Virus record (IMG/VR): IMGVR_UViG_3300027733_000141
Location: 1 to 32,596 of that record
Source: a virus
Direction: 5' to 3' (one strand)
Length of the DNA: 32,596 nt
Shown: piece by piece, positions 5,711 to 32,596 of the stretch
Layout of the letters: each line of letters opens with the position of its first letter
Numbering within the stretch: position 1 is the stretch's first letter
Notes under the pieces: model-generated
The model's input: only the letters and a program-made list of their open reading frames with translations
What the model was told of the DNA's origin: nothing
Databases searched by the model: none
Translations under genes and position numbers: made by a program

Positions 5711-6676
5711 TTATTGAGTCGGAGTTACAGTGAATTTTGCACCACTTTTTGTTGTACCAGAAACAGGTCCAGCAGGAGCTGCTGAAGATGCTGGAGGAGC
5801 AGGAGCATTTGGAAAACCACCGCCACCCATAACCATTTGCAATGCTTGTAATTTTTGTGCTGCTTGAGCATCACCCGCAGCAGCACTTTTTTGCAGATCT
5901 TTAATATTAGCTTCTTTAGAAAGAGCTTCTAAACGAGTTGCTTCTTCTGTATCGCCACGTAAACGTGCTTTAGCAGCATGATTACCATACACAACAGATT
6001 GTGCTTGATATGTTCTAGCGGCAGACAAGTCTTGCTGTAAAGTCTTTTCAAGATTAGCTTTTTCTTGGGCAAGTTTTGCTTTAGCAGCTTCACGCATACC
6101 TTCAACAGTAACTTGATTTTTACCTTGTTCTTTAATTCCATCAATGTGTGAACGGTAAGCAGCACCTTGCTGAATGATTTTATTTCTAAAAGCATCTAAA
6201 GCTTGTGGCAGTTTATCAGGAGGAATCTGTGAGGTTTGCTGCCAAATGCTTTTAACGGCAGGATCGTTAGTATCAATACCATTTTGCTGAGCAAAGTTGG
6301 CAAGCCATGCATGACGAGCAGGAGGAGGTATGTTAGCTAACTGTGCAGCAGCAACTCCCATTAGTTGGCTATAAGCATCTGCTTTTTTAACAGCACCTTC
6401 CAGTTTACCAATGGTTAAATCAAACTTACCTTTTTCAAGTTCTACAGCACCCTTTTCAATGTCTTGAGCGCCTTTATCAAGACCCTGTTTTTTGCTCTGA
6501 AGTTCTAAAGGATGCAGTTCTGCTTGTTGAGAGGTACGCTGCATAATGTCTGCCATCTGTGCTTGACGATAGGCTTCTTGTGATTTCTGTTCGTTTGCAG
6601 CTTGAGCCATTTGTGAGCCAGCTACTACAGCTCCGCCCATTGGTCCCAAGTTTTGAAACATTGAGGATAAATCCAT
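5711..6676 (-). CDS. Putative internal virion/ejection protein (321 aa, coiled coil)
   Basis: The N-terminus (MDLSSMFQNLGPMGGAVVAG) is hydrophobic and Gly-rich. It is followed by long Gln/Ala/Lys/Glu-rich helices, with probable coiled coil around residues 25-80 and 180-270, and a Pro/Ala-rich linker near the C-terminus before a short TKSGAKFTVTPTQ tail. This hydrophobic-start, helical-body layout is common in podovirus ejection proteins. It sits directly upstream of the 1446-aa protein with a 12-base gap. The assignment rests on composition and position, not on a recognised domain. Confidence 0.65.
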   Translation of the reverse strand: MDLSSMFQNLGPMGGAVVAGSQMAQAANEQKSQEAYRQAQMADIMQRTSQQAELHPLELQSKKQGLDKGAQDIEKGAVELEKGKFDLTIGKLEGAVKKADAYSQLMGVAAAQLANIPPPARHAWLANFAQQNGIDTNDPAVKSIWQQTSQIPPDKLPQALDAFRNKIIQQGAAYRSHIDGIKEQGKNQVTVEGMREAAKAKLAQEKANLEKTLQQDLSAARTYQAQSVVYGNHAAKARLRGDTEEATRLEALSKEANIKDLQKSAAAGDAQAAQKLQALQMVMGGGGFPNAPAPPASSAAPAGPVSGTTKSGAKFTVTPTQ

Positions 6677-6686
6677 ATACTATCCT

Positions 6687-7748
6687 TTATTTAGACATTG
6701 CGTACAAAGTAGCAAGTGTAGCAGGAGTGTTCATCATACCGTAACGATTACCTAAACCTAAATTAGCCAAGGAGTTTTGACCACTTTGCATACCAGTTAA
6801 AGCATTAGTTTTATATTTAGCTATGGCACCTGCAAGTTCATTTGCACGGGTTCCATATTGACTGTTACGTCCAGCTTTAGCATCTGCACGAGCCATTTGC
6901 TGTTGTAACAAATTGTATTCAGGAGAACCAGGAGCATACATGTTATTAATGTCTGCACGGTTTTGATTGTACATACCTTCTTGTGCTTTAGCCATTTTGT
7001 TCTTGGCATACATGTCATACAAACTAGCAGCACCATAGATGGTAGGAATTGGTTTCTCTTTAGCAAAGTCATAAGCTTTGCTAGCCATATTAGCTAAACT
7101 AAAAGGTGATTCTACACCAGGCATAGCAGGACCGCTATTAAAAGCGGGCATCATGTCTTGTATACCAGAATAATCTAAAGGAGCAGAACTTCCCATAGAA
7201 CTGGTTACAGCATTATTTAATACTTGTTGTGTTTCAGGGGCAGCAGATAATGGTAAACTACGAGTAGTTAAAGGTCCTTCTGTTACAGGGGGGAAATTAC
7301 TAGCTCCACTACTTCCTAATGTTTCTGGAAGAGCTTGAGGAGTCATGTCTCCACCTGCAGGAATACCATCAAATGTTCCAATGTTATTTTCAAGTCCTGG
7401 AACTGCGTTACCAGTAATAGAGGCTACGTCTGCAGCACTGCTAGCATATGGGGCAAACGCTTCTGCAAACTGAGAACCAGCAAGAGTGTCTAAACCTCCA
7501 AGAGATTCAAGATAACCTAAGCCTCCTGCTCCTCCTAATCCTGCCATACCAGCGGTTCCTAGACCACCAGCAGTAAGTCCTCCACCAGCACCTGTAGCTG
7601 CCATATCACCAAGGAAAGCTCCACCACCTGCTGCCTCAGCAGCACCCAAGCCAGCTAAACCTTCTCCTGCACCAGTAGCAAGCATGTCTCCAAGAAACAT
7701 TTCTCCAGCACCAGCTTCTAGCAATAACGGTTCAAATCCTGTACACAT
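6687..7748 (-). CDS. Putative internal virion protein (353 aa, Gly/Ala-rich N-terminus)
   Basis: The first 90 residues are strongly Gly/Ala/Leu-rich and contain an imperfect duplication, FLGDMLATGAGEGL then FLGDMAATGAGGGL. The middle is low-complexity Ser/Pro/Gly. The last 130 residues are helical and Gln/Met/Asn-rich (NKMAKAQEGMYNQNRADINN onward). The MCTGFEPLL start resembles many podovirus proteins of the T7 gp14 position, where a hydrophobic internal protein begins the ejection set. It overlaps the GNAT gene stop by one base. Function is inferred from composition and gene order. Confidence 0.65.
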   Translation of the reverse strand: MCTGFEPLLLEAGAGEMFLGDMLATGAGEGLAGLGAAEAAGGGAFLGDMAATGAGGGLTAGGLGTAGMAGLGGAGGLGYLESLGGLDTLAGSQFAEAFAPYASSAADVASITGNAVPGLENNIGTFDGIPAGGDMTPQALPETLGSSGASNFPPVTEGPLTTRSLPLSAAPETQQVLNNAVTSSMGSSAPLDYSGIQDMMPAFNSGPAMPGVESPFSLANMASKAYDFAKEKPIPTIYGAASLYDMYAKNKMAKAQEGMYNQNRADINNMYAPGSPEYNLLQQQMARADAKAGRNSQYGTRANELAGAIAKYKTNALTGMQSGQNSLANLGLGNRYGMMNTPATLATLYAMSK

Positions 7749-8206
7749 TATGCAATCTCCTTATTGAATACGTATCCCATAGCATTATATCCTAAACGGG
7801 TATACATACCCTGTACCTTGTCCATATTAATACCAGTCGTGTGACCGATGACGATTGAGGTTGCTTTGTTGTCTTTAGACCACTTTTCAAAGTTCTTGAA
7901 TAAGCGGACAAACAAAATAGAACCACGATGTTCTGGCTTTATAAACATTGCCATGTCGCCTGCTGTAAGCTCATCAGAGAAGTATTGCTCACTAATTCTA
8001 CCAAGGATGCCACCTTCAATAACACCGTTGTTTTTAGAATACGTTAAATACATCCTATTAGGATGAGCTTTAGTAGCCAACAAAATCTTGCTCATCTTAG
8101 AGCGGTCAAACTTTTTGTTTTTAAAATGAGGAGATTCTTGGTGCATTTGCTCAGAAATGTCCAAGAGTTGTTGTAAGTCCTCATCCATAAGATGTGTATA
8201 AATCAT
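7748..8206 (-). CDS. GNAT-family N-acetyltransferase
   Basis: The 152-aa length and pattern fit the GNAT fold: an N-terminal helix pair, a strand with GGILGRISE (about residues 65-73), the core strand AGDMAMFIKPEHRGSILFVR (about 82-101) with an acetyl-CoA-loop-like RGS, and a C-terminal GMYTRLGYNAMGYVFNKEI typical of the last GNAT strands. Such enzymes transfer an acetyl group to an amine; the substrate cannot be told here. Many podovirus operons carry one beside the ejection proteins. It overlaps the upstream gene by 4 bases. Confidence 0.75.
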   Translation of the reverse strand: MIYTHLMDEDLQQLLDISEQMHQESPHFKNKKFDRSKMSKILLATKAHPNRMYLTYSKNNGVIEGGILGRISEQYFSDELTAGDMAMFIKPEHRGSILFVRLFKNFEKWSKDNKATSIVIGHTTGINMDKVQGMYTRLGYNAMGYVFNKEIA

Positions 8207-8697
8207 GTTAAGAGTACCGATTTCATTGTACCACCATCATTGGTCCAGAGTTTAACTAAACCAGAGGTTGTATTTTTATACACAGCCGCTTTACTAGCAG
8301 CAATGTCGGAAGTAGTTGGATCACTAGACAAACTTTGAACGGCTAACAAATTAGCTGAACCTGTAGTATTTTGATTCCAAGTTGGAACTGTTCCTGTAAG
8401 TCCACTATAAGCAACATTAGTTGCTGTAGCAGCATTACCAGAGATGTTAGGAAGGGCTGTTACATTTGCTGCTTCAGCAGAAGAAATGTGATATTGTCCT
8501 GTACCTAATATACTAGTTAACAGTCCGTGGTTTTTATTCTGTAAGTCCGCAATTGAACTGCCAGCTTTGTTGACAAGGTCCCAAGAAACAGAACCATTAG
8601 TATTAAGAAGAACGTAGAGTTGGTTATACCATGCTGTCCAAGCAAAGTCACCAGCTCCAGCCCTTGTTGGTGGTGGGGGTAGTCCTCCGCCAGCCAT
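8203..8697 (-). CDS. Putative virion appendage/fibre protein (164 aa)
   Basis: The Gly/Pro-rich start (MAGGGLPPPPTRAG) is followed by a short helical part with FAWTAWYNQLYVLLN. The rest is a Ser/Thr/Asn/Gly-rich body containing SGNAATATNVAYSGLTGTVP, a repeat type common in phage fibres. The C-terminus reads VYKNTTSGLVKLWTNDGGTM, like tail-fibre head domains that begin new beta modules. It lies between the gp10-like tail factor and the GNAT gene and shares bases with both. It is probably a tail-associated structural protein. Confidence 0.6.
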   Translation of the reverse strand: MAGGGLPPPPTRAGAGDFAWTAWYNQLYVLLNTNGSVSWDLVNKAGSSIADLQNKNHGLLTSILGTGQYHISSAEAANVTALPNISGNAATATNVAYSGLTGTVPTWNQNTTGSANLLAVQSLSSDPTTSDIAASKAAVYKNTTSGLVKLWTNDGGTMKSVLLT

Positions 8698-10142
8698 TAG
8701 ATACTACCTTTGTTAAGGTCAACTTCTAAACCTTCTAAACGAAGAAGATGTGGAAGGCTGTATGTTAGTTTAAAAGCACGTCGTCTAAACTGTCCTAGCT
8801 GGTCAATTTTAGGAAGATCAGCATTAAAGTTTAATGTACGGGCTGTACTAAATGTCTTATAGTCATCATCAGACCATTGCACCGATACCGCTATGTCTGT
8901 TCCTGTCGAATCAGGAACATCTCCTATGATAGATAAACGATACATAAATTTACGGTTAATGGTATCAAAGTCGAGCTTAGCAGAAGTAAAAACACAATCA
9001 ATGGCTGTTCCAGCGTCAGTAAACAATGTTTCATCCATTGTGTAAACTTTGCCGTTTGCCTTATCCAATACGTAAGCGCTTCCGTTAGGACCGTCTGTAC
9101 CATGTGAGCATAAGAATGCTCCTGATGCTGTACTCCACTCGTGCCACATTTTTGTATCAAAGCTGTATACCAATGTCCTGTTAGTTAAACAAACGACATA
9201 ACATTTCTGTCCTGCCACACGAACACAAAAAGCTTGTGCAGTTGGAAGATTTGCACCTTCTGCAAGGAGCGCACTCTTTATTGCAGGGATACCAATTTCA
9301 GCTGCCTTAAACCCGTCAATGGTCCACACCGTGTGACCACCATTGTTTGTTTCACCTATCATGATAACTTCTGTTTCTGTTTGTACAACAGAATCTCTAG
9401 CAGCAGTACCAAACTGTTGCACAGCAGAATCATGACGTCCTAGGGGACTTCCTGTAGCATTAGCTACGTCGTATAAGTATTCAACGCTACTAGAACCTAC
9501 AGCATAAATGTAATTGTTGTTTTTAGACAACGCTACAATAATGTCTGGGTACATTTCAGCAGAAATATAATCACCTGCTGTCCATAATGACGGATCATCT
9601 AAATTACTATTATAGATGTCAGCAGTGTTTGCTTTAGCAACAAACAAATAAGCATCTATAAAGATAGGAATAGGTACATGTGGTGTAGGAAACTCAGCAT
9701 CTGTTATTTTAACAGCAGTAGTTGAGTTGCTAAACACATATCCATCAGTGCCATCTAATAGTACAAGAGACACAGTTCCTGTACTGCTAACAAATTCTGT
9801 AAAACCTACAGAACCCGTAGAAGTTGCTAAGGTTAATACAGCAGAACCGTTTGCATAAACTTTGTCACCAACAACAGCCATGCAATAACCAGTACCACTA
9901 ATAACCCAATAATATATACCACGTCCTTCACCTGTCTGTGTAGTAAAAGCTTGAGCTACACCTGGACGGCTTTTAATAAAATATTTACTTTGATCTCCAA
10001 CAGGACTCTTAATAACCTCCACCATCATGTTTAACAGACGGAAATCCTGTGCAGCATTAGTACCACGCTGTTGTGGATTGGAGATAAAATTGACTCTCTT
10101 GGTTTCGTATGTTTGAATTGCTGGTGTTTTTGAGTAGGCCAT
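8697..10142 (-). CDS. P22 gp10-like packaged DNA stabilization / tail hub protein
   Basis: The product is 481 aa, close to P22 gp10 (472 aa). It has the family pattern: an N-terminal arm with LLNMMVEVI, a GVAQAFTTQTGEGRGIYY-type blade, repeated beta blades with VYSFDTKMWHEW (about residue 325-336) and TVWTIDGFKAAEIG, and a beta-rich C-terminus. In P22 this protein sits below gp4, plugs the portal channel after packaging and anchors gp26 and the tailspikes. The gp4-like gene lies immediately upstream with no gap, the same order as in P22-like tails. Family assignment is good. Confidence 0.85.
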   Translation of the reverse strand: MAYSKTPAIQTYETKRVNFISNPQQRGTNAAQDFRLLNMMVEVIKSPVGDQSKYFIKSRPGVAQAFTTQTGEGRGIYYWVISGTGYCMAVVGDKVYANGSAVLTLATSTGSVGFTEFVSSTGTVSLVLLDGTDGYVFSNSTTAVKITDAEFPTPHVPIPIFIDAYLFVAKANTADIYNSNLDDPSLWTAGDYISAEMYPDIIVALSKNNNYIYAVGSSSVEYLYDVANATGSPLGRHDSAVQQFGTAARDSVVQTETEVIMIGETNNGGHTVWTIDGFKAAEIGIPAIKSALLAEGANLPTAQAFCVRVAGQKCYVVCLTNRTLVYSFDTKMWHEWSTASGAFLCSHGTDGPNGSAYVLDKANGKVYTMDETLFTDAGTAIDCVFTSAKLDFDTINRKFMYRLSIIGDVPDSTGTDIAVSVQWSDDDYKTFSTARTLNFNADLPKIDQLGQFRRRAFKLTYSLPHLLRLEGLEVDLNKGSI

Positions 10143-10859
10143 TTACATTGTCTTTCTACCAGCAGTGTCTGGTTGGAAGAATATACCACCCTCTTCAGTA
10201 CCAAACGACAGAGCTTTCTCATGGAAGAACTCAGCTTCTTTAGCCAGCAATTGTCTGTCCTGTAAAGGAACACCATATTCTGGAGACAGCCTGTGAGCCA
10301 ATCCATAGATGATTGCTTCTGTCCATTCAGACGGAAAGTCAATGTCATCTGTAGAAGATGTCATGTCCTCAAAAGGAGTTTGATAACGTAGGGTAATAGT
10401 GGTTGTAGAATCGCTAGGCTTGGGCCATAAATTAATTACACCATAATCACGCAAAGGTTGATAATACAAATTAACTGGTGTGCCAGAAGAATTAACTAAT
10501 GGTAAAATAGCGTAGTTATAATTTGTATAAATGTTCATTGGAACATTAGAATATGAGGTGCTGTCATTACGCCAAGCTTGTATAACCTTAAGCGGTTTAT
10601 TTGTATTAAACGTTTGACTAGGACCAATGTTGTATGCGGCTGTGCCTGTAGTTACAGTGAAGGTGTAACTTTTAATTGACCAGAGGGGCATGCCGTCTGT
10701 TTCAAATGCCTTAATCATAGCGTTAAGGGCTTGTGTTGCGTCAGTAATTTGATAAGTCTCTGGAGAACTACCTCCTGACAAAACACCAAGTTTCCGCAAT
10801 GCCGCAGAAATAATCTCGTTTCTGTTAAGTTTCCAAGTAGTTGTGCCCGAAGTGCTCAT
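10143..10859 (-). CDS. P22 gp4-like tail accessory factor (head completion/connector)
   Basis: The 238-aa product opens with an alpha-helical block, NEIISAALRKLGVLSGG then ALNAMIKAFETDGMPLWSIK (about residues 13-62). A beta-rich middle with LWPKPSDSTTTITLRYQTPF follows, then a helical C-terminal part (WTEAIIYGLAHRLSPEYG). This is the pattern of P22 gp4-type accessory factors, which bind under the portal once DNA is packaged and allow the tail to attach. P22 gp4 itself is shorter (166 aa), so this one is enlarged. Direct contact with the gp10-like gene supports the call. Confidence 0.8.
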   Translation of the reverse strand: MSTSGTTTWKLNRNEIISAALRKLGVLSGGSSPETYQITDATQALNAMIKAFETDGMPLWSIKSYTFTVTTGTAAYNIGPSQTFNTNKPLKVIQAWRNDSTSYSNVPMNIYTNYNYAILPLVNSSGTPVNLYYQPLRDYGVINLWPKPSDSTTTITLRYQTPFEDMTSSTDDIDFPSEWTEAIIYGLAHRLSPEYGVPLQDRQLLAKEAEFFHEKALSFGTEEGGIFFQPDTAGRKTM

Positions 10860-10861
10860 AA

Positions 10862-11323
10862 TTAACCCGCTTGTTTGTGATATTCGTCCTCAGTTAAAAT
10901 ACCAGGTAGGTATTTTTTTTGAGGATTAAAAATTGTTAGTTTTTGTTGCCGCATTTCTGGGGCAAAGGATATGTGAGTCCATTTACCATATTCATAAATC
11001 ATCTGGTCAAACTTAATACCAGAAGCTTCTATGGCTTTACACACTGCATAAGGATTGCCAAAGGGGGATACAAAGTCTATTGCCCAACCATCCATATGGC
11101 TAGACACCTTGCTACCGCCCACTGCCACATTAACTTCTGGCAGGCGAATCCAAGAGTTTACAGAAATGGATTTACCAAGGAGTGCCCTCACTTGTTCCAT
11201 ACCGATTGCTGCTTTCTTCATGTTCTCAAGTTGACGAGCATCGGGTTGATTATTAATACCCAAACGGATGGCTGTGTCCGAGTGGGTTGCTTCTTCCAAG
11301 CTAAAGTGTTCGGAAAGAATCAT
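10862..11323 (-). CDS. Peptidase M15-type endolysin
   Basis: The product is 153 aa with the M15A pattern. SEHFSLEEATHSDTA opens the domain, EQVRALLG and VNSWIR follow, and the zinc site is visible as SSHMDGWAIDF (His76 and Asp83) and WTHISF (His117). The FDQMIYE segment carries the acidic residue usually near the catalytic site. These enzymes cut peptide cross-links in peptidoglycan. It overlaps the holin gene by 4 bases, forming a lysis cassette in the middle of the virion operon. There is no signal peptide, so it needs the holin for release. Confidence 0.9.
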   Translation of the reverse strand: MILSEHFSLEEATHSDTAIRLGINNQPDARQLENMKKAAIGMEQVRALLGKSISVNSWIRLPEVNVAVGGSKVSSHMDGWAIDFVSPFGNPYAVCKAIEASGIKFDQMIYEYGKWTHISFAPEMRQQKLTIFNPQKKYLPGILTEDEYHKQAG

Positions 11324-11793
11324 TTCTTTTTCATTTCAGCAAGTTTCTCAATTGTACGACCACCAAAGTATGCACCCATTATTAGCATACCCCATTGTCC
11401 TAACAACTGAACATAAGACTCATTGGCATTTAAACCAAAAGCACTCATCATAGCAAACAGAAAGTATCCCATAAAAATAGCTACAAGGCTCATAGGACGT
11501 ATATTCTTAGACAACCAAGAGTCAGACGACATGTCTGCATCCCAGCGTTTAGAAACATTGTCATTCTCATTCTTGCCAGCATCTGCTGCAACTTTAGCAA
11601 ACTCAAGTTCAAGTTCTGCTATTTTCTGTGCTGCTGTTGGGTCACCTGCTATGGCTTTAGCAACTTCTGCTACGCTGTCAGAAACACCCAGTCTAGACGC
11701 TATTGCTGATACGGCAGCACCACCTAAAGGACCAGCTACAGCTGTAGCCAATGTTGGAGCTATGTTTTTAAGTAGCCCTAGCAAATCATTCAT
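11320..11793 (-). CDS. Holin, GTA 3-TM type
   Basis: I start at the ATG at 11793, preceded by AAAGGAACAACA; an upstream in-frame start at 11889 would lie inside the preceding gene and has no good ribosome site. The 157-aa product has an N-terminal small-residue hydrophobic helix (about 10-33), a charged middle with WDADMSSDSWLSKNIRP, and two clear membrane segments (about 101-120 and 127-145), then a lysine-rich tail. This matches the gene-transfer-agent family of holins that open the inner membrane for lysis. The M15 endolysin follows directly. Confidence 0.82.
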   Translation of the reverse strand: MNDLLGLLKNIAPTLATAVAGPLGGAAVSAIASRLGVSDSVAEVAKAIAGDPTAAQKIAELELEFAKVAADAGKNENDNVSKRWDADMSSDSWLSKNIRPMSLVAIFMGYFLFAMMSAFGLNANESYVQLLGQWGMLIMGAYFGGRTIEKLAEMKKK

Positions 11794-25824: not shown

Positions 25825-26118
25825 TTAATGTTCTCGTCTACTGGTTTGGCTCTTGAGGCTTCCGTCTCCATTTCTAGAAAAGCTTCTATTTGAGCCTTTA
25901 GAGACAGAGCGAGCGTTGGAAAGAGTATTGGCTCCGCCTTTGGAAAGAGGTCGGATGTGGTCGAGGTCATTTCCGTCTCCTTTGTGGGTGATGCCTTGAG
26001 CATTAGCTTGTCTCCGTAAGGTGGTTCTTTCCGACCGATTGTGTATCTGGTCTGGACGGCTGTGGTACTTCGCGTATTCCTTCGCGTAGTCCCTCTTCCC
26101 ATTGGTCATGTATGGCAT
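25825..26118 (-). CDS. HNH endonuclease-like protein (97 aa)
   Basis: I start at the ATG at 26118, 7 bases after GGAG; an ATG at 26124 in the same frame is too close to that site. The N-terminus is basic (NGKRDYAKEYAKYHSRPDQ). The motif DLDHIRPLSKGGANTLSNAR (about residues 53-72) with a later SNRSF is a clear HNH pattern of the small type found next to terminase genes. Such proteins help the terminase of some phages at cos cleavage. The first third overlaps the terS frame. It ends just before terL. Confidence 0.8.
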   Translation of the reverse strand: MPYMTNGKRDYAKEYAKYHSRPDQIHNRSERTTLRRQANAQGITHKGDGNDLDHIRPLSKGGANTLSNARSVSKGSNRSFSRNGDGSLKSQTSRREH

Positions 26119-26764
26119 CAGCATTCTCCAAACTGGTTGCGGGAGCAGGATTCGAACCTACGACTTCCAGCTTATGAGACTGGCCTTCTACCTCTGAATT
26201 ATCCCGCGTTTTAATCTCAACGTCCTCTGCATCGATGATGAGAGGGTCTTTTTTCTTTGTTACAAATTCTGCAAACTTTTCAGCCAGCTTAAGCAAACGA
26301 TCCTCGTCTTGCTTCTCTTCCTGCTGGGGAGCAGCTGCCTTGTCAAGCAAGGCTCGTTTATCCAAAAGGTCAACAGCAACTTTATGGGCATCCCGTAGGT
26401 TGACCTGCTTGCGAACCATCTCGCCAGACTTTTGGTCAAACATGAAATCCCCGTTAACAATCCTATCCTCGACAGCCCCTAGGCTGGCATCAACGATTTT
26501 CTTCAAGCGTGCAGACATCTGCATGTTTTCTTGAAGCTTGATGTCCTCAACCGTGTTTTTCCACCATTCGGTGGTTTTCCACACACGGAGGGTTATTTCA
26601 GGGATGGCAAGCACCCTGCTCGTAAGAGCCAAGTTGCCAAGAAGCAACCAAGATTGGACAGCTTCTATTTTTTGCTTGTCACTCCAGGAATGGTTAGAAC
26701 CCGTGCTCAAAGCACGTTTCTTTGGGCTGCGTTTTTTAGCAGCAGGATTGTCCGATAAAGCCAT
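26003..26764 (-). CDS. terS: Terminase small subunit-like protein whose frame runs through a tRNA gene
   Basis: I start at the ATG at 26764, preceded by GGAG. The N-terminal 110 residues have a basic start (AAKKRSPKKRAL) and a helix-turn-helix-like WSDKQKIEAVQSWLLLGNLA with ITLRVWKTTEWWKNTVEDIK, as in DNA-binding small terminases. A helical oligomerisation part follows (to about residue 175). Residues about 186-210 are a translation of the tRNA gene, and the last 40 or so lie in a frame overlapping the HNH gene. Natural homologues probably end near residue 180; this tail looks acquired. It is the first gene of the late operon. Confidence 0.78.
   Translation of the reverse strand: MALSDNPAAKKRSPKKRALSTGSNHSWSDKQKIEAVQSWLLLGNLALTSRVLAIPEITLRVWKTTEWWKNTVEDIKLQENMQMSARLKKIVDASLGAVEDRIVNGDFMFDQKSGEMVRKQVNLRDAHKVAVDLLDKRALLDKAAAPQQEEKQDEDRLLKLAEKFAEFVTKKKDPLIIDAEDVEIKTRDNSEVEGQSHKLEVVGSNPAPATSLENADAIHDQWEEGLREGIREVPQPSRPDTQSVGKNHLTETS
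26134..26208 (-). tRNA. tRNA with CAU anticodon, initiator-like (C1 x A72)
   Basis: The minus-strand sequence from 26208 folds as a full cloverleaf of 75 nt with encoded CCA. The acceptor arms CGCGGGA and TCCCGCA pair except for C1 with A72, the mark of bacterial initiator tRNA. The anticodon loop is CTCATAA in a CCAGT/GCTGG stem. The T arm is GTAGG-TTCGAAT-CCTGC. The D arm has GAGGTAG. Unlike E. coli initiator tRNA, the anticodon stem lacks three G-C pairs and the D stem has T11-A24. It may be a phage initiator tRNA or a hybrid; elongator Met or Ile(AUA) is the alternative. Confidence 0.88.
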
Positions 26765-26801
26765 TGTTTTTGTTCTCCACAAAAAGATCCTCTAGGAAAC
26801 A

Positions 26802-26819
26802 GGCATCATTTGTGATGCC
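26802..26819 (-). promoter_or_regulatory. 5' leader hairpin of the late operon mRNA
   Basis: The arms GGCATCA (26802-26808) and TGATGCC (26813-26819) form a perfect 7-bp stem with a 4-nt loop. On the minus strand it begins about 5 bases after the predicted transcription start (near 26824), so it would sit at the very 5' end of the late mRNA. No T-tract follows on either strand, so it is not a terminator. A 5' hairpin of this kind usually protects mRNA from decay; an operator is the alternative. Confidence 0.6.
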
Positions 26820-26830
26820 GTATACTTAAT

Positions 26831-26859
26831 ATTATACCATAGATTAAAGTAAATGTCAA
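26831..26859 (-). promoter_or_regulatory. Perfect-consensus sigma70 promoter for the late (virion) operon
   Basis: Minus-strand TTGACA (26859-26854), a 17-base spacer and TATAAT (26836-26831) match the full consensus in both boxes. The predicted start is near 26824, about 60 bases before the terS ATG. The A/T-rich block just upstream (26860-26902) can act as an UP element shared with the divergent promoter. It is the only strong promoter I see for the 26-kb minus operon. Confidence 0.88.
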
Positions 26860-26902
26860 GCTATTTCTAAAAAATTTATAAAAAAAATTTTAAGACTACA
26901 TC

Positions 26903-26931
26903 TTGACAAAACAGGAATTGTATGTTATACT
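26903..26931 (+). promoter_or_regulatory. Sigma70 promoter for the plus-strand arm
   Basis: Plus-strand TTGACA (26903-26908), a 17-base spacer and TATACT (26926-26931) match the consensus at 11 of 12 positions. The predicted start is near 26938, inside the A/T tract. The first gene begins about 1.1 kb downstream, giving a very long leader that contains all the repeat families of the control region. The -35 box is 43 bases from the -35 box of the divergent promoter. Confidence 0.85.
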
Positions 26932-26991
26932 ATATATTAATATATATATTATATTATATATTATTATATTATTATTATATTATATATTATA
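26931..26991. repeat. 61-bp pure A/T tract
   Basis: Every base from 26931 to 26991 is A or T, in irregular TAT/ATT repeats. It starts at the last base of the plus promoter -10 box. Such a tract melts easily and could be a DNA unwinding element of an origin. It is immediately followed by a GC-containing alternating tract, a sharp change in base composition. Confidence 0.75.
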
Positions 26992-26993
26992 CT

Positions 26994-27044
26994 TATACGC
27001 ACGTACACGTGCGCATGCGTACGCACGAGCAAGCTCATGCTTGC
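26994..27044. repeat. 34-nt alternating pyrimidine-purine tract and nested inverted repeats
   Basis: Bases 26994-27027 alternate pyrimidine and purine without a break, a pattern able to adopt Z-DNA. Inside it are CGCACGT/ACGTGCG (26998-27004 and 27007-27013), the palindromes CGCATGCG (27012-27019) and GCGTACGC (27017-27024). Just after it, GCAAGC/GCTTGC (27029-27034 and 27039-27044) forms a hairpin with a 4-nt loop. No gene covers it. Confidence 0.65.
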
Positions 27045-27384
27045 GACAATGTACGCGCGAAGCGCTATGACCATCTTGCTTACATTGAACCTAAAGGTTG
27101 TATGCGAGGCCCTAGCCGAGCTTAGCATGTGTCTAGAATCGATTTAAACACCCCTAGAAGCTCCTGAAAGGAGCATGGGAATACCTAGGTAGCCAAACTA
27201 TAAATAATCGTTTTAAACGCTTGTCCTATAAACAGTATACCCCACCCCTTTTAAAAACAATAATTACCGTAGTAAATAGGGTTACGCACAATTTCCCTCC
27301 AGCCAAGTTTCCCCCCACCCCCCCTTTGAATATTCAAATGATGAGGTGATGTTTTAAATTATGCATTTCAAATATAATCAAATA
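27045..27384. other. Non-coding control region, left part
   Basis: No convincing ORF. The stretch contains the small hairpin GCTCCT-GAA-AGGAGC (about 27161-27175), two C-rich blocks (CCCCACCCC near 27240 and C6-A-C7 at 27311-27324), and directly after the second a perfect 14-bp palindrome TTTGAATATTCAAA (27325-27338). It would be part of the long leader of the plus transcript. Confidence 0.5.
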
Positions 27385-27461
27385 CTTATATAAGCCCATG
27401 CTGATATACTTATATGCGGATTCGCTTATATAAGCCGTTGCCATTTCTTAGATTCTAAGAT
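27385..27461. repeat. CTTA...TAAG palindrome cluster, left group
   Basis: Three perfect inverted repeats share the half-site CTTA/TAAG: CTTATATAAG at 27385-27394, GCTTATATAAGC at 27424-27435 and CTTAGATTCTAAG at 27447-27459. A half copy, CTTATATGCGG, lies at 27409. The same family returns at 27811-27963. Spaced palindromes of this kind are typical binding sites of a dimeric DNA-binding protein. Confidence 0.65.
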
Positions 27462-27503
27462 TGTAAACGCGAATGATTCTCATTCTCACCCACTAGAATG
27501 TAG

Positions 27504-27643
27504 GTAATACTTTAGTTCTAACCCTATACAAAGTAATACTTTTGTTTCTAGAACCACTACCTATATACATCAATAGTAGTAATGTCCCAGAAATGGTGTA
27601 ATACTTTTGTTTCCTAAACGGAAACTAGATGAATACTTTAGTG
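27504..27643. repeat. GTAATACTTTWGT iteron-like direct repeats
   Basis: Four direct copies start at 27504 (GTAATACTTTAGTTCTA), 27533 (GTAATACTTTTGTTTCTA), 27598 (GTAATACTTTTGTTTCCTA) and 27631 (GAATACTTTAGTGTC). Spacings are 29, 65 and 33 bases, close to multiples of three helical turns. An inverted copy lies at 27758-27773. Short, regularly spaced direct repeats in a non-coding block beside A/T-rich DNA suggest replication iterons. Confidence 0.6.
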
Positions 27644-27720
27644 TCAAAAGTGTCGGAAAACCGACAGTTAGTAAGCACTCACTTGTCAAAAAGTCGACAC
27701 TAGTGTCAAAAAACCGACAC
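27641..27720. repeat. Cluster of seven TGTC-core sites in direct and inverted order
   Basis: Within 80 bases the core TGTC (or GACA inverted) occurs at 27642, 27651, 27663 (inverted), 27685, 27696 (inverted), 27704 and 27716 (inverted), mostly as GTGTC followed by A-runs. They form TGTCGG-AAAA-CCGACA (27651-27666), the perfect palindrome GACACTAGTGTC (27696-27707) and GTGTC-N8-GACAC (27703-27720). This is a dense protein-binding array, probably an operator or initiator site. Confidence 0.6.
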
Positions 27721-27810
27721 CATTTTGGAAACCAAAGTGTTACAAAATGAGCCAAAATAATACTAAAGTAATATGGCACACTAGTTGCTTACTATATAGG
27801 TATCAGAGAA

Positions 27811-27963
27811 AATCTTATTTAAGGGCTAAAATTGAAAACAAAAGAATTCATTTTACTAGTTGGCATAATCTTTGCTTACTTAATAGTATCAGGATTAGAC
27901 AATCTTAAATGAGGGAATCTTAGTTAAGAAAATCTTAGTTAAGAAATACTTAGATTCTAAGAT
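27811..27963. repeat. AATCTTA 15-mers and CTTA...TAAG palindromes, right group
   Basis: Four 15-base units occur: AATCTTATTTAAGGG (27811), AATCTTAAATGAGGG (27901), AATCTTAGTTAAGAA (27916) and an exact second copy (27931). The last three are contiguous. Each contains CTTA-N2-TAAG or a one-base variant. The element CTTAGATTCTAAGAT (27949-27963) is an exact copy of 27447-27461. The group ends about 65 bases before the first plus-strand gene, so its binding protein could control that gene. Confidence 0.65.
27832..27912 (+). CDS. Possible 26-aa single-helix membrane peptide (TTG start)
   Basis: A TTG at 27832 follows AAGGG by about 8 bases and opens a 26-codon frame ending TGA at 27910. The product starts MKTKEF, has a continuous hydrophobic stretch of about 15 residues (ILLVGIIFAYLIVSG) and ends LDNLK. 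This basic-hydrophobic-polar layout is that of a small inner-membrane peptide. It lies between the control-region repeats and its stop overlaps one of them. It could be chance in A/T-rich DNA. Confidence 0.35.
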   Translation: MKTKEFILLVGIIFAYLIVSGLDNLK

Positions 27964-28028
27964 AATGTCGAATTGAATGGCATGGTGTCATTCAGACGGC
28001 ATTACATTGAAATCTTGGAGATTTTATC

Positions 28029-28912: not shown

Positions 28913-28938
28913 AGCCCGCCATTGTGCGGGCTTTTTTT
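28913..28938 (+). terminator. Rho-independent terminator 1 of a tandem pair
   Basis: The arms AGCCCGC (28913-28919) and GCGGGCT (28926-28932) form a 7-bp GC-rich stem with a 6-nt loop, followed by an unbroken T tract to 28938. It begins 18 bases after the stop of the 288-aa gene. Confidence 0.92.
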
Positions 28939-28941
28939 GTT

Positions 28942-28969
28942 GCGTAACTTTTTAGTTACGCTTTTTTTT
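28942..28969 (+). terminator. Rho-independent terminator 2 of a tandem pair
   Basis: The arms GCGTAACT (28942-28949) and AGTTACGC (28954-28961) form a perfect 8-bp stem with a TTTT loop, followed by eight T residues (28962-28969). It starts only 4 bases after the first T tract and ends 24 bases before the next ATG. Confidence 0.9.
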
Positions 28970-29847: not shown

Positions 29848-29991
29848 ATGAACACTTGTCCTGAATGTAGTGAGTATGTATTGTGTAAAGAATGCCAGCA
29901 GGCTTTTGAAGAGGCTCAGGTCTATCAACAAGCCGAGCCAGAGCCAACACGCATCAACATAGCCAGTGGAGAAGATGTATGTTTAGCGTAA
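29848..29991 (+). CDS. Small zinc-binding-like protein (47 aa)
   Basis: I start at the ATG at 29848, preceded by AAGGGGATTCAC. The product opens with CPECSEYVLCKECQQAFEE, two CxxC pairs 7 residues apart that could bind one zinc ion, then a Gln/Pro/Glu-rich tail. The stop region overlaps the next start by 13 bases. One GGTCTATCAA copy lies in this gene (29919-29928). Function unknown. Confidence 0.6.
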   Translation: MNTCPECSEYVLCKECQQAFEEAQVYQQAEPEPTRINIASGEDVCLA

Positions 29992-30407
29992 AATGGAAAT
30001 CCCGTGACTTCGAGAAGAACGGTCGTGACGGCACAATCAAGTATCAGGTTGGTAAAAATGAGGCTATGCTTGTCTGTAGAATAGAAACATGGGCATTTGG
30101 TAGTTGTGCTTGCTTTGCATTAAGTAGGTTCAATGATGCCTACAACTTTCGCTATGATGCAGAGAACATTGATAAATTCTTTGAGTTTGTCTGCGGTTTA
30201 GACGAAGATTGGAAGCCCAGAGAGTTTTACTTTCTGTTAAGCAAGAGCCAACTTGCTCAGGATAAACTAAAGTTTCTGTATAGACACCCCAATGTCAAAT
30301 TGCGTGATGTGTTTAGCAACAAATCCCATGGTCCAAACAAAGTTTATTTGTTTAGATATTCTGCAAGTAAGGATTTCAAAGCCTTCCGTAAATTGAAGGG
30401 TATGTAA
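29979..30407 (+). CDS. Phage protein of unknown function (142 aa)
   Basis: The product is a mixed alpha/beta protein: MFSVKWKSRDFEKNG, then beta segments with RIETWAFGSCACFALSRFND, a helix (NIDKFFEFVCGLDEDW), LSKSQLAQDKLKFLYRHPNV and a final FRYSASKDFKAFRKLKGM. The SR-F-D--N and LL-KSQL----L-FL-RHPNV spacing looks like a compact conserved domain, but I cannot name it. It overlaps its neighbours, so it belongs to the operon leading to the amidoligase. Confidence 0.65.
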   Translation: MFSVKWKSRDFEKNGRDGTIKYQVGKNEAMLVCRIETWAFGSCACFALSRFNDAYNFRYDAENIDKFFEFVCGLDEDWKPREFYFLLSKSQLAQDKLKFLYRHPNVKLRDVFSNKSHGPNKVYLFRYSASKDFKAFRKLKGM

Positions 30408-30793
30408 TGAACATCATAGACATATACATAGGCAGAGATTTCTACGACTACAAGCGTAGCCCGTCACACCACGCGTGTGAAACCAATGTAGATGATGACT
30501 ACATTGATGGACAACTCGAGAGAATTGTCAAGGAGTTTAAAGCCAAGAAAATCCCTTGGTATCTAATGACTGTCACCACATATGAGGTGGGTGGTGATGT
30601 TAACACTGCTCATTATCACAATGCTCACCCCATGAAGGAGAAAATCATTCTCAATAAACCCGCTAAAGATGCACCACCCCCTAGGTATGGAATTAACATT
30701 GAAGAACTAATTAACGGTCATCATGGATTGGCTGTTAATGTCTATGCACCGCCAGAAGCACAACAACCTGTAGAGGAGCCTGACTTTGATTGA
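30407..30793 (+). CDS. Phage protein of unknown function (128 aa)
   Basis: The ATG overlaps the upstream stop by one base. The product has IGRDFYDYKRSPSHHACETN near the start, DDDYIDGQLERIVKEFKAKK as a helix, a beta part with WYLMTVTTYEVGGDVNTAHY, and a Pro/Glu-rich acidic C-terminus. Several His residues cluster in HYHNAHPM (about residues 68-75), which could bind a metal. No family recognised. It is coupled to the next gene by an 8-base overlap. Confidence 0.62.
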   Translation: MNIIDIYIGRDFYDYKRSPSHHACETNVDDDYIDGQLERIVKEFKAKKIPWYLMTVTTYEVGGDVNTAHYHNAHPMKEKIILNKPAKDAPPPRYGINIEELINGHHGLAVNVYAPPEAQQPVEEPDFD

Positions 30794-31202
30794 ACTAACA
30801 TTTGCCAGTAAGCGTGTAGTTACACCCCCTCCTGTATTGGAGGTGTCTAAACTACCATGGTATCCTGCAATACCCCCTAATGTTCAGCAACTAGCCGATG
30901 CCAAAGGCATCACTGTCCCTGAATATTTGAGGCGTGATAAGATTGTCCAAGAACTGTATGCCACAGTTAAACTGAAGGCGGGTGATACCGCATACCCAGT
31001 CAATGCTAGTGGCTATGCCAAGTATGGTGCTTCCATTGTCATAGGTGTATGTAAAACATACAAAGACTTTGGCACTGATGGTGTATGGAATGATGACAAT
31101 CCCATGATTATCACCTTCTCTCCTCTCAAGAAACGAGAAGAACACATCTTCTGCACAGCGGATTACCTCGTTCATCGTAACCCCCACATAATTACTTGCT
31201 AA
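30786..31202 (+). CDS. Phage protein of unknown function, beta-rich (138 aa, TTG start)
   Basis: The TTG at 30786 follows GAGGAG by 7 bases and no better start exists nearby. After a Pro-rich N-terminus (KRVVTPPPVLEVSKLPWYPA) and a helix (VQQLADAKGITVPEYLRRDK), the C-terminal half from about residue 63 (LKAGDTAYPVNASGYAKYGA onward) reads like a small SH3/KOW-type beta barrel, with FCTADYL near its end. The fold is a guess. It is directly upstream of the amidotransferase in the same operon. Confidence 0.6.
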   Translation: MIELTFASKRVVTPPPVLEVSKLPWYPAIPPNVQQLADAKGITVPEYLRRDKIVQELYATVKLKAGDTAYPVNASGYAKYGASIVIGVCKTYKDFGTDGVWNDDNPMIITFSPLKKREEHIFCTADYLVHRNPHIITC

Positions 31203-31213
31203 GGTCTATCAAA

Positions 31214-31891
31214 TTGCCTACACTAGCCTACTCACCGTTCGGTAACGGACACTCCATCTACCCCTTTGACGAACTATTCGACAATCAAGTAGATGCCTAT
31301 GTTAATGGATTCAATGGTGTTGATGCCTTCCTGTTATGGGGTGGCACAGACATTCATCCATCATTCTATAATGAATCTCCACATAGATTCAATCAAGCCC
31401 CATCATTCCCATCTGAGCGTGATATGTGGGAATGGGGTGCAATGAAAGCGTGCAAAGCCAAGGGTATACCAATCATTGGTGTATGCCGTGGTGCTCAGTT
31501 CATGTGTGCATTTGCAGGTGGTAAACTGATACAACACGTATCAGGGCATGACCGTGGCTATCACCCAGTGGTTACATCATATGGTAAGACTTATGATGTT
31601 ACATCAGCACATCATCAGATGCTTGACCTAACAGACACTGAGCATGAACTAATTGCGTGGTCTCCATCTAATCTCAGTGCTGTATACTATGGTGCTAAGA
31701 ATGAGACACCAGAACATCTATTGTTACAGATGCGAGAGTCTAAGTTTAAAGAACCAGAGATTGTATACTTCCCTGAGTTCAAAGGTTTGGCTATTCAGGG
31801 ACACCCTGAGTGGGCTGATTTAAAAGAAGAGTTTGTGCAAGAAACAAACCGTTTAGTTGTCGAGTATCTATTTAACGAGAAATGGAAATAA
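31214..31891 (+). CDS. Class I glutamine amidotransferase / peptidase C26-like
   Basis: I start at the TTG at 31214, 9 bases after AAGG; an alternative TTG at 31196 overlaps the upstream gene. The product has the class I amidotransferase triad: nucleophile Cys in IIGVCRGAQFMCAFAGGKL (about residue 91), and His and Glu in QGHPEWADLKEEF (about 197 and 199). LLWGGTDIHPSFYNE and TSAHHQMLDL match the gamma-glutamyl-GABA hydrolase (PuuD-like) branch. Such enzymes cut glutamine-type gamma-glutamyl amides and can supply ammonia. It directly precedes the amidoligase gene, which points to a joint reaction. Confidence 0.88.
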   Translation: MPTLAYSPFGNGHSIYPFDELFDNQVDAYVNGFNGVDAFLLWGGTDIHPSFYNESPHRFNQAPSFPSERDMWEWGAMKACKAKGIPIIGVCRGAQFMCAFAGGKLIQHVSGHDRGYHPVVTSYGKTYDVTSAHHQMLDLTDTEHELIAWSPSNLSAVYYGAKNETPEHLLLQMRESKFKEPEIVYFPEFKGLAIQGHPEWADLKEEFVQETNRLVVEYLFNEKWK

Positions 31892-31893
31892 CT

Positions 31894-32596
31894 ATGCGTC
31901 TAGGCTCTGACCCCGAAGTATTCCTGCAAGACCAAGCAGGTAATCCCGTATCTGCCATTGGTTACATCAATGCAGACAAGTGGAATCCTATGCAGATTCC
32001 TGATATGCCTGAAGGCTATACCTTGCAAGAGGACAATGTGTCCCTCGAGTATGGTGTGCCACCAGCATCTAGTGCCGATGAATTTGTTCTTCACATTAAC
32101 AGTGTGATGACCAAGTCTAAGGAATATCTACCTAACCTATCATTCTCTAAGTTGTCATGTATCATCTTCCCTGAGAGTCAGATGAATGACCCTCGTGCCC
32201 ACATCTTCGGTTGTGAGCCTGACTTTGATGCTTGGACTAAGGATGTCAACAAGAAACCGAATCCTCCTCATCCTCTTATGCGTAGCGCTGGCGGTCACAT
32301 CCATGTCGAGACGCAGAAAGATGCACTCGATGTTATCCGTGCCATGGATTTATTCCTTGGTGTCCCCTCTGTGCTAATGGACGATGGTGAGATGCGTAAG
32401 CAGTTGTATGGTAAGGCTGGTGCATTCCGTGCCAAACCATATGGCGTAGAGTATCGCACTCTCTCTAACTTCTGGATATTTAACGATGACTTGATTCGTT
32501 GGGTCTGGAATAATACTCAGCGTGCGTTAGATAGCGTAGGCGTAGTAGATGTGTCAGCAGAGCAAGAGCGTATCTTGCGGTCTATCAACAACAGCG
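31894..32596 (+). CDS. phiEco32-like COOH-NH2 ligase (amidoligase) type 2, 3' cut by window
   Basis: The ATG at 31894 lies 2 bases after the amidotransferase stop (an in-frame ATG at 31882 is possible). The 234 visible residues show the family pattern: GSDPEVFLQDQAGNPVSA at the start, LQEDNVSLEYGVPPASSADE (about residues 46-65), FGCEPDFDAWT, RSAGGHIHVE (about 131-140) and YGKAGAFRAKPYGVEYRTLS with SNFW. These are conserved segments of the phage amidoligases with a glutamine-synthetase-like fold (COOH-NH2 ligase type 2), thought to join a carboxyl to an amine using ATP. The substrate is unknown. Confidence 0.88.
   Translation, partial: MRLGSDPEVFLQDQAGNPVSAIGYINADKWNPMQIPDMPEGYTLQEDNVSLEYGVPPASSADEFVLHINSVMTKSKEYLPNLSFSKLSCIIFPESQMNDPRAHIFGCEPDFDAWTKDVNKKPNPPHPLMRSAGGHIHVETQKDALDVIRAMDLFLGVPSVLMDDGEMRKQLYGKAGAFRAKPYGVEYRTLSNFWIFNDDLIRWVWNNTQRALDSVGVVDVSAEQERILRSINNS

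Follow-up and report, generated by a model that had tools for sequence, protein, structure and literature searches.

The window analysed here is the entire 32,596-bp virus record IMGVR_UViG_3300027733_000141, i.e. an assembly fragment. A second record, IMGVR 3300009184_000129 (L002), matched the window with 99.95% identity over its first 8,068 bp and extended beyond the window end, and its far end was 99.9% identical with the left end of the window over 7.6 kb. The overlap at both ends implies that the two records make up a single genome of about 48 kb. The window starts within a ribonucleotide reductase gene (positions 1–375), the counterpart of which in L109 (4837–6507), a 556-aa ORF, matches in three separate stretches and may be interrupted or rearranged. 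Among the late genes, a minus-strand tRNA-Met gene with anticodon CAT (26134–26208) overlaps the 3′ portion of a 259-aa ORF (26003–26782). No convincing gene is present over about 1.2 kb (26800–28028), which contains two strong divergent sigma-70-like promoters predicted from consensus matches, one on the plus strand facing the early region (26903–26931; TTGACA-17-TATACT with TG before the −10 element, 11/12) and one on the minus strand facing the late genes (26859–26831; 12/12). Further along, two successive plus-strand intrinsic terminators (stems at 28913–28932 and 28942–28961, each followed by a T run) lie 3′ of a 288-aa gene, and the stretch leading to the genes of interest starts downstream of them.

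The plus-strand genes at the right end of the window encode a 142-aa protein (29979–30407) with no Pfam match, a 128-aa protein (30407–30793) and a 138-aa protein (30786–31202; TTG start with GAGGAG upstream), the latter two with no Pfam or PHROG match, followed by a peptidase-C26-type class I glutamine amidotransferase or predicted gamma-glutamyl hydrolase (C26; 31214–31891) and a phiEco32-like COOH-NH2 ligase type 2 (31894–32596). The 128-aa protein gave a weak PADLOC match to HamA (E 0.0045).

The C26 amidotransferase and the COOH-NH2 ligase

A preliminary description, made from the window alone, had recognized an intact Cys/His/Glu class I amidotransferase, followed after 2 bases by a phiEco32-type ligase with its conserved segments, and searches with the C26 and ligase family models bore out both assignments well above the curated cut-offs. 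C26 matched PF07722 at 2.5e-20 (73.6 bits, cut-off 20.5), PHROG_7218 at 1.7e-27 and the GATase model PF00117 at 2.2e-6, and its triad (Cys97, His203 and Glu205) was invariant across 59 aligned relatives, as were His139-His140-Gln141 and the remaining named positions of Gln201-His203-Pro204-Glu205. The start of the gene had previously been placed at 31196, which adds six residues and would overlap the 138-aa gene. Because the relatives begin with ‘M..L(T)xYSP’, the start is likely to be TTG 31214, giving a protein of 225 aa; this codon lies 11 nt past the upstream stop, with an AAGG Shine–Dalgarno-like site at 31202–31205.

Comparison of the C26 profile with the PDB gave Lin1909 (1.2e-24), a ‘probable glutamine amidotransferase’ entry which we take to be SpuA (2.4e-15) and PuuD (3.2e-12) as the best matches, with ammonia-channelling domains ranking behind. 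The best NCBIfam match was the gamma-glutamyl-CDP-amidate hydrolase NF045546 (1.1e-10); at 41.9 bits against an equivalog cut-off of 250 bits, C26 is related to this Campylobacter enzyme but was rejected as its equivalog.

The ligase gene starts at ATG 31894, 2 nt past the C26 stop, and runs off the contig after 234 of 252 codons. The complete gene, 252 aa from ATG, is present in L002 (7366–8124). It matched PF14395 (3.7e-14, 53 bits, cut-off 25) and PHROG_3815 (1.2e-68, 232 bits), and 26 columns were invariant among 69 relatives, including Asp6, Glu8, Glu52, His135, Glu186 and Arg188; by analogy, these acidic, histidine and arginine residues may serve catalysis. None of the PDB sequences was matched by the ligase profile. 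AlphaFold2 gave a confident model (pLDDT 96.5), with which Foldseek retrieved YbdK-type carboxylate-amine ligases, gamma-glutamylmethylamide synthetase (GmaS), glutamate-cysteine ligase (GCL) and glutamine synthetase (GS) with E-values down to 1.6e-4, the likeness being at the fold level only (TM about 0.46). The modelled fold is thus of the glutamine-synthetase/gamma-glutamyl-ligase (GS/GCS2) type, in line with the earlier prediction that the pair forms an amide or gamma-glutamyl-type bond.

Relatives of the ligase were present in 316 isolate phage records, with many Pseudomonas and E. coli phages among them, and in at least 168 IMG/VR stretches, whereas 84,980 species genomes yielded just three MAG contigs, two of them from one MAG. 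The family is therefore essentially viral, and a cellular origin or a bacterial operon was set aside as a clue to function, since these contigs offered no cellular context.

The six-gene cassette and its neighbours

The pair had been described as standing at the end of an operon. Instead, the operon continues in L002, where positions 6668–11359 encode C26, the COOH-NH2 ligase, a 199-aa protein, Amidoligase_2 (PF12224, 9.9e-6; PHROG amidoligase, 2.7e-33), a class II amidotransferase (PF13522, 1.5e-18) and a RimK-like ATP-grasp ligase (PF08443, 6.1e-9), with primase, helicase and family A DNA polymerase genes downstream. C26 and the ligase are thus the front of a six-gene block. This block is almost certainly the phage “peptidoglycan modification cassette” already published from many phages (PMC5498523; PMC11945000; PMC10580990; genome table in PMC3890496), as the ligase, Amidoligase_2, the class II amidotransferase and the ATP-grasp enzyme occur in one block with C26 or a gamma-glutamylcyclotransferase (GGCT). 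In phiEco32, LUZ24, tf, PA11 and RIO-1/HP1 the same families stand in nearly the same order beside primase and polymerase, the common set being the COOH-NH2 ligase, a 186–199-aa protein, Amidoligase_2, the class II amidotransferase and the ATP-grasp enzyme.

To define the gene content across relatives, a profile from 13 aligned ligases was used to collect 168 IMG/VR relatives, of which 80 loci were taken and combined with 12 isolate phages, giving a sample of 92 loci that is weighted towards the relatives of the window. Local profile searches found Amidoligase_2 and the class II amidotransferase in 89 loci each, the ATP-grasp enzyme in 85, C26 in 79 and the 199-aa protein in 76. About 65 of the 92 loci had the gene order seen in L002, and two further arrangements were present. 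Six loci, namely L020 (Rhizobium phage RHph_N3_13), L073, L074, L076, L077 and L084, carried two class II amidotransferase genes each rather than one. C26 and the ligase did co-occur in related phages, as had been expected (C26 in 80 of the 89 loci with enough context), but the ligase does not always come with C26, which is absent from phiEco32-like and LUZ24-like phages.

The 199-aa protein, a member of the commonest cassette form, is encoded between the two amidoligases (L002: 8121–8717) and carries an RxPxRQWxRG...N motif. Its relatives were phage-only, including one in Salinivibrio phage CW02. The AlphaFold2 model was confident (pLDDT 94.6), yet a structural comparison with the PDB gave no match below E 0.03, just SH3/KOW-like barrel fragments, and the structure was set aside as a functional clue.

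The three genes upstream of C26 behaved differently. The preliminary description had suggested that the genes at 29979–31202 might belong to the same system, and had asked whether the 128-aa and 138-aa proteins travel with the pair. The 142-, 128- and 138-aa genes were found in 10, 11 and 16 of the 92 loci respectively, and all of these loci sit in one supported ligase clade, which includes the window; phiEco32- and LUZ24-type cassettes differ in this respect. Because they are confined to this clade, we rejected them as general cassette parts and regard them as clade-specific neighbours that are probably not in the same system.

C26 and GGCT as alternative members

Members of the window's clade carry C26 but lack GGCT (none was found in the near-identical record searched for the window's phage), and the reverse holds for the phiEco32-like and LUZ24-like phages. 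We searched for GGCT (PF06094) and C26 (PF07722) across 26 whole records, which settled two apparent double absences: Cronobacter phage A24 has a more distant GGCT, and L058 has C26 at its other end. Among the 89 loci with enough context, 67 had C26 only, 13 both and eight GGCT only, so that 88 carried C26 or GGCT or both; the single locus with neither (L072) also lacked the remaining cassette genes in the stretch examined. The GGCT-only loci retain the YGSL/YGTL motif and the catalytic-type glutamate of LEG/LES. The 13 loci with both enzymes rule out strict mutual exclusion and imply that the two are not strictly interchangeable. Fisher's test on the pattern gave p = 0.0006 with incomplete loci included, a value on which we do not rely because the labels are clustered on the ligase tree, leaving 3–4 independent pairs, too few for a significance test.

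GGCT cleaves gamma-glutamyl amines, releasing the free amine and pyroglutamate, and is unable to provide a synthetase with ammonia. Should C26 share one job with GGCT, that job is gamma-glutamyl removal, and since cassettes lacking C26 carry GGCT, C26 most likely strips gamma-glutamyl groups. Lin1909, SpuA and PuuD as the closest solved relatives fit the same activity. Taken together, the GGCT pattern and the solved relatives suggest that C26 probably removes gamma-glutamyl groups.

In the alternative case, C26 would act as a glutaminase that supplies ammonia to the ligase next to it, and the two would form a primary amide in the manner of MurT/GatD on peptidoglycan. The intact class I triad, the additional match to the GATase model and the position of C26 directly upstream of the ligase, at most 40 bp away, in 30 of 79 loci are consistent with such a role. 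However, C26 lies 300 bp to 4.6 kb from the ligase in about half of the loci, nearly every cassette already has a separate class II amidotransferase, GGCT-only cassettes do without C26 although GGCT is no ammonia supplier, and the closest solved relatives of C26 include stand-alone gamma-glutamyl hydrolases. We therefore consider ammonia donation by C26 unlikely. Thus, where the amidotransferase had been proposed to supply ammonia or to trim the product, trimming is favoured, because GGCT stands in for C26 and stand-alone hydrolases are among its closest solved relatives, and ammonia supply is disfavoured.

A proposed gamma-glutamyl chemistry and its target

The families, the fold and the gene order described above are observations; the substrates, the order of the reactions and the purpose that follow are a proposal. 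We think it likely that the known cassette, of which the two window genes are the first, attaches and removes gamma-glutamyl-type groups. The GS/GCS2-fold ligase would use ATP to activate a carboxylate, for which the gamma-carboxyl of glutamate is the likeliest candidate, and join it to an amine; GS-fold ligases also take substrates other than glutamate. Amidoligase_2 and the ATP-grasp enzyme may add one or two further amide bonds, and the class II amidotransferase could serve as an ammonia source or a second glutaminase. C26, or GGCT in other phages, would take off the gamma-glutamyl group, either deprotecting or releasing the product or stripping an existing target.

Two characterized pathways resemble this scheme in part. 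The Puu/Spu gamma-glutamyl polyamine pathway likewise combines a GS-fold ligase (PuuA) with a C26 hydrolase (PuuD/SpuA), and these hydrolases rank with the best PDB matches of the window's C26. The phage ligase differs in being a small protein of the GS fold that matches no PDB chain in sequence, and the cassette is without the aminotransferase and dehydrogenase steps and has extra ligases. In butirosin biosynthesis, ATP-grasp gamma-glutamyl ligation by BtrJ is followed by GGCT deprotection by BtrG, and the GGCT forms of the cassette combine an ATP-grasp enzyme with a BtrG-like GGCT, a likeness resting on the record note on tf_25. The window's phage has no GGCT by the search above, and no antibiotic genes were seen. 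By comparison with both pathways, the cassette could run an obligatory gamma-glutamyl protect-and-deprotect cycle in which C26 and GGCT are unrelated stand-ins for the removal step, yielding a small, phage-specific isopeptide or conjugate instead of a lasting change to peptidoglycan, with the 199-aa protein as a carrier or specificity factor; we regard this stricter version as speculative and rather doubtful.

Cell-wall precursors are the usual published guess for the target. In the proposal of superinfection exclusion (PMC5498523; PMC10580990; PMC11945000; with Iyer 2009 and Hardies 2013 linking the cassette to cell-wall modification as cited in later papers), the cassette as a whole alters peptidoglycan side chains. 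As a proposal about the target, it can hold together with gamma-glutamyl removal by C26. In phage HP1 the predicted cassette genes are transcribed immediately after infection (PMC7082346), in keeping with this proposal. However, the sequences studied here gave no pointer specific to peptidoglycan, and our literature search found no enzymatic, biochemical or genetic test of the cassette, including of peptidoglycan change in infected cells, nor a demonstrated substrate for any of its members. We therefore treat peptidoglycan as a conjecture with somewhat less than an even chance of being right, and exclusion of superinfecting phages as a reading of similarly tentative standing.

Other roles appeared less promising. 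PADLOC gave no match to known anti-phage defence systems among the cassette proteins, so a known defence system was rejected, and a role in DNA base modification was likewise set aside, as a non-exhaustive scan of seven proteins from the rest of the record matched no base-modification family. The presence of phage ZRK32 was associated with better host growth on nitrate or ammonium, attributed to its amidoligase and GGCT (PMC10945688), and the cassette might accordingly aid host synthesis of amino acids or glutathione-like compounds from ammonium. However, the growth effect is tied to these genes by correlation, cellular genomes hardly ever carry the ligase, which sets it apart from typical auxiliary genes of host origin, and the cassette adjoins replication genes in phages mostly described as lytic. 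A part in auxiliary nitrogen metabolism thus seems very improbable.

The cassette itself was known; the present analysis adds its completed gene content, the C26-or-GGCT rule, the ligase fold and a conserved 199-aa protein without a solved fold. Two of these offer testable handles: cassettes carry an enzyme predicted to remove gamma-glutamyl groups from one of two unrelated families, and the commonest form includes the phage-only 199-aa protein. If gamma-glutamyl removal is indeed the shared step, the C26 of one phage should substitute for the GGCT of another.

A second cassette arrangement is represented by loci L078, L079, L085, L087 and L100. About 3–5 kb upstream of the ligase, each has an intact GGCT beside a GGCT paralogue without YGSL and LEGY, and in L085 and L100 a C26 paralogue without CRGxQ or HPE is also found at the GGCT pair. 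These paralogues appear to be catalytically inactive copies retained alongside active ones.
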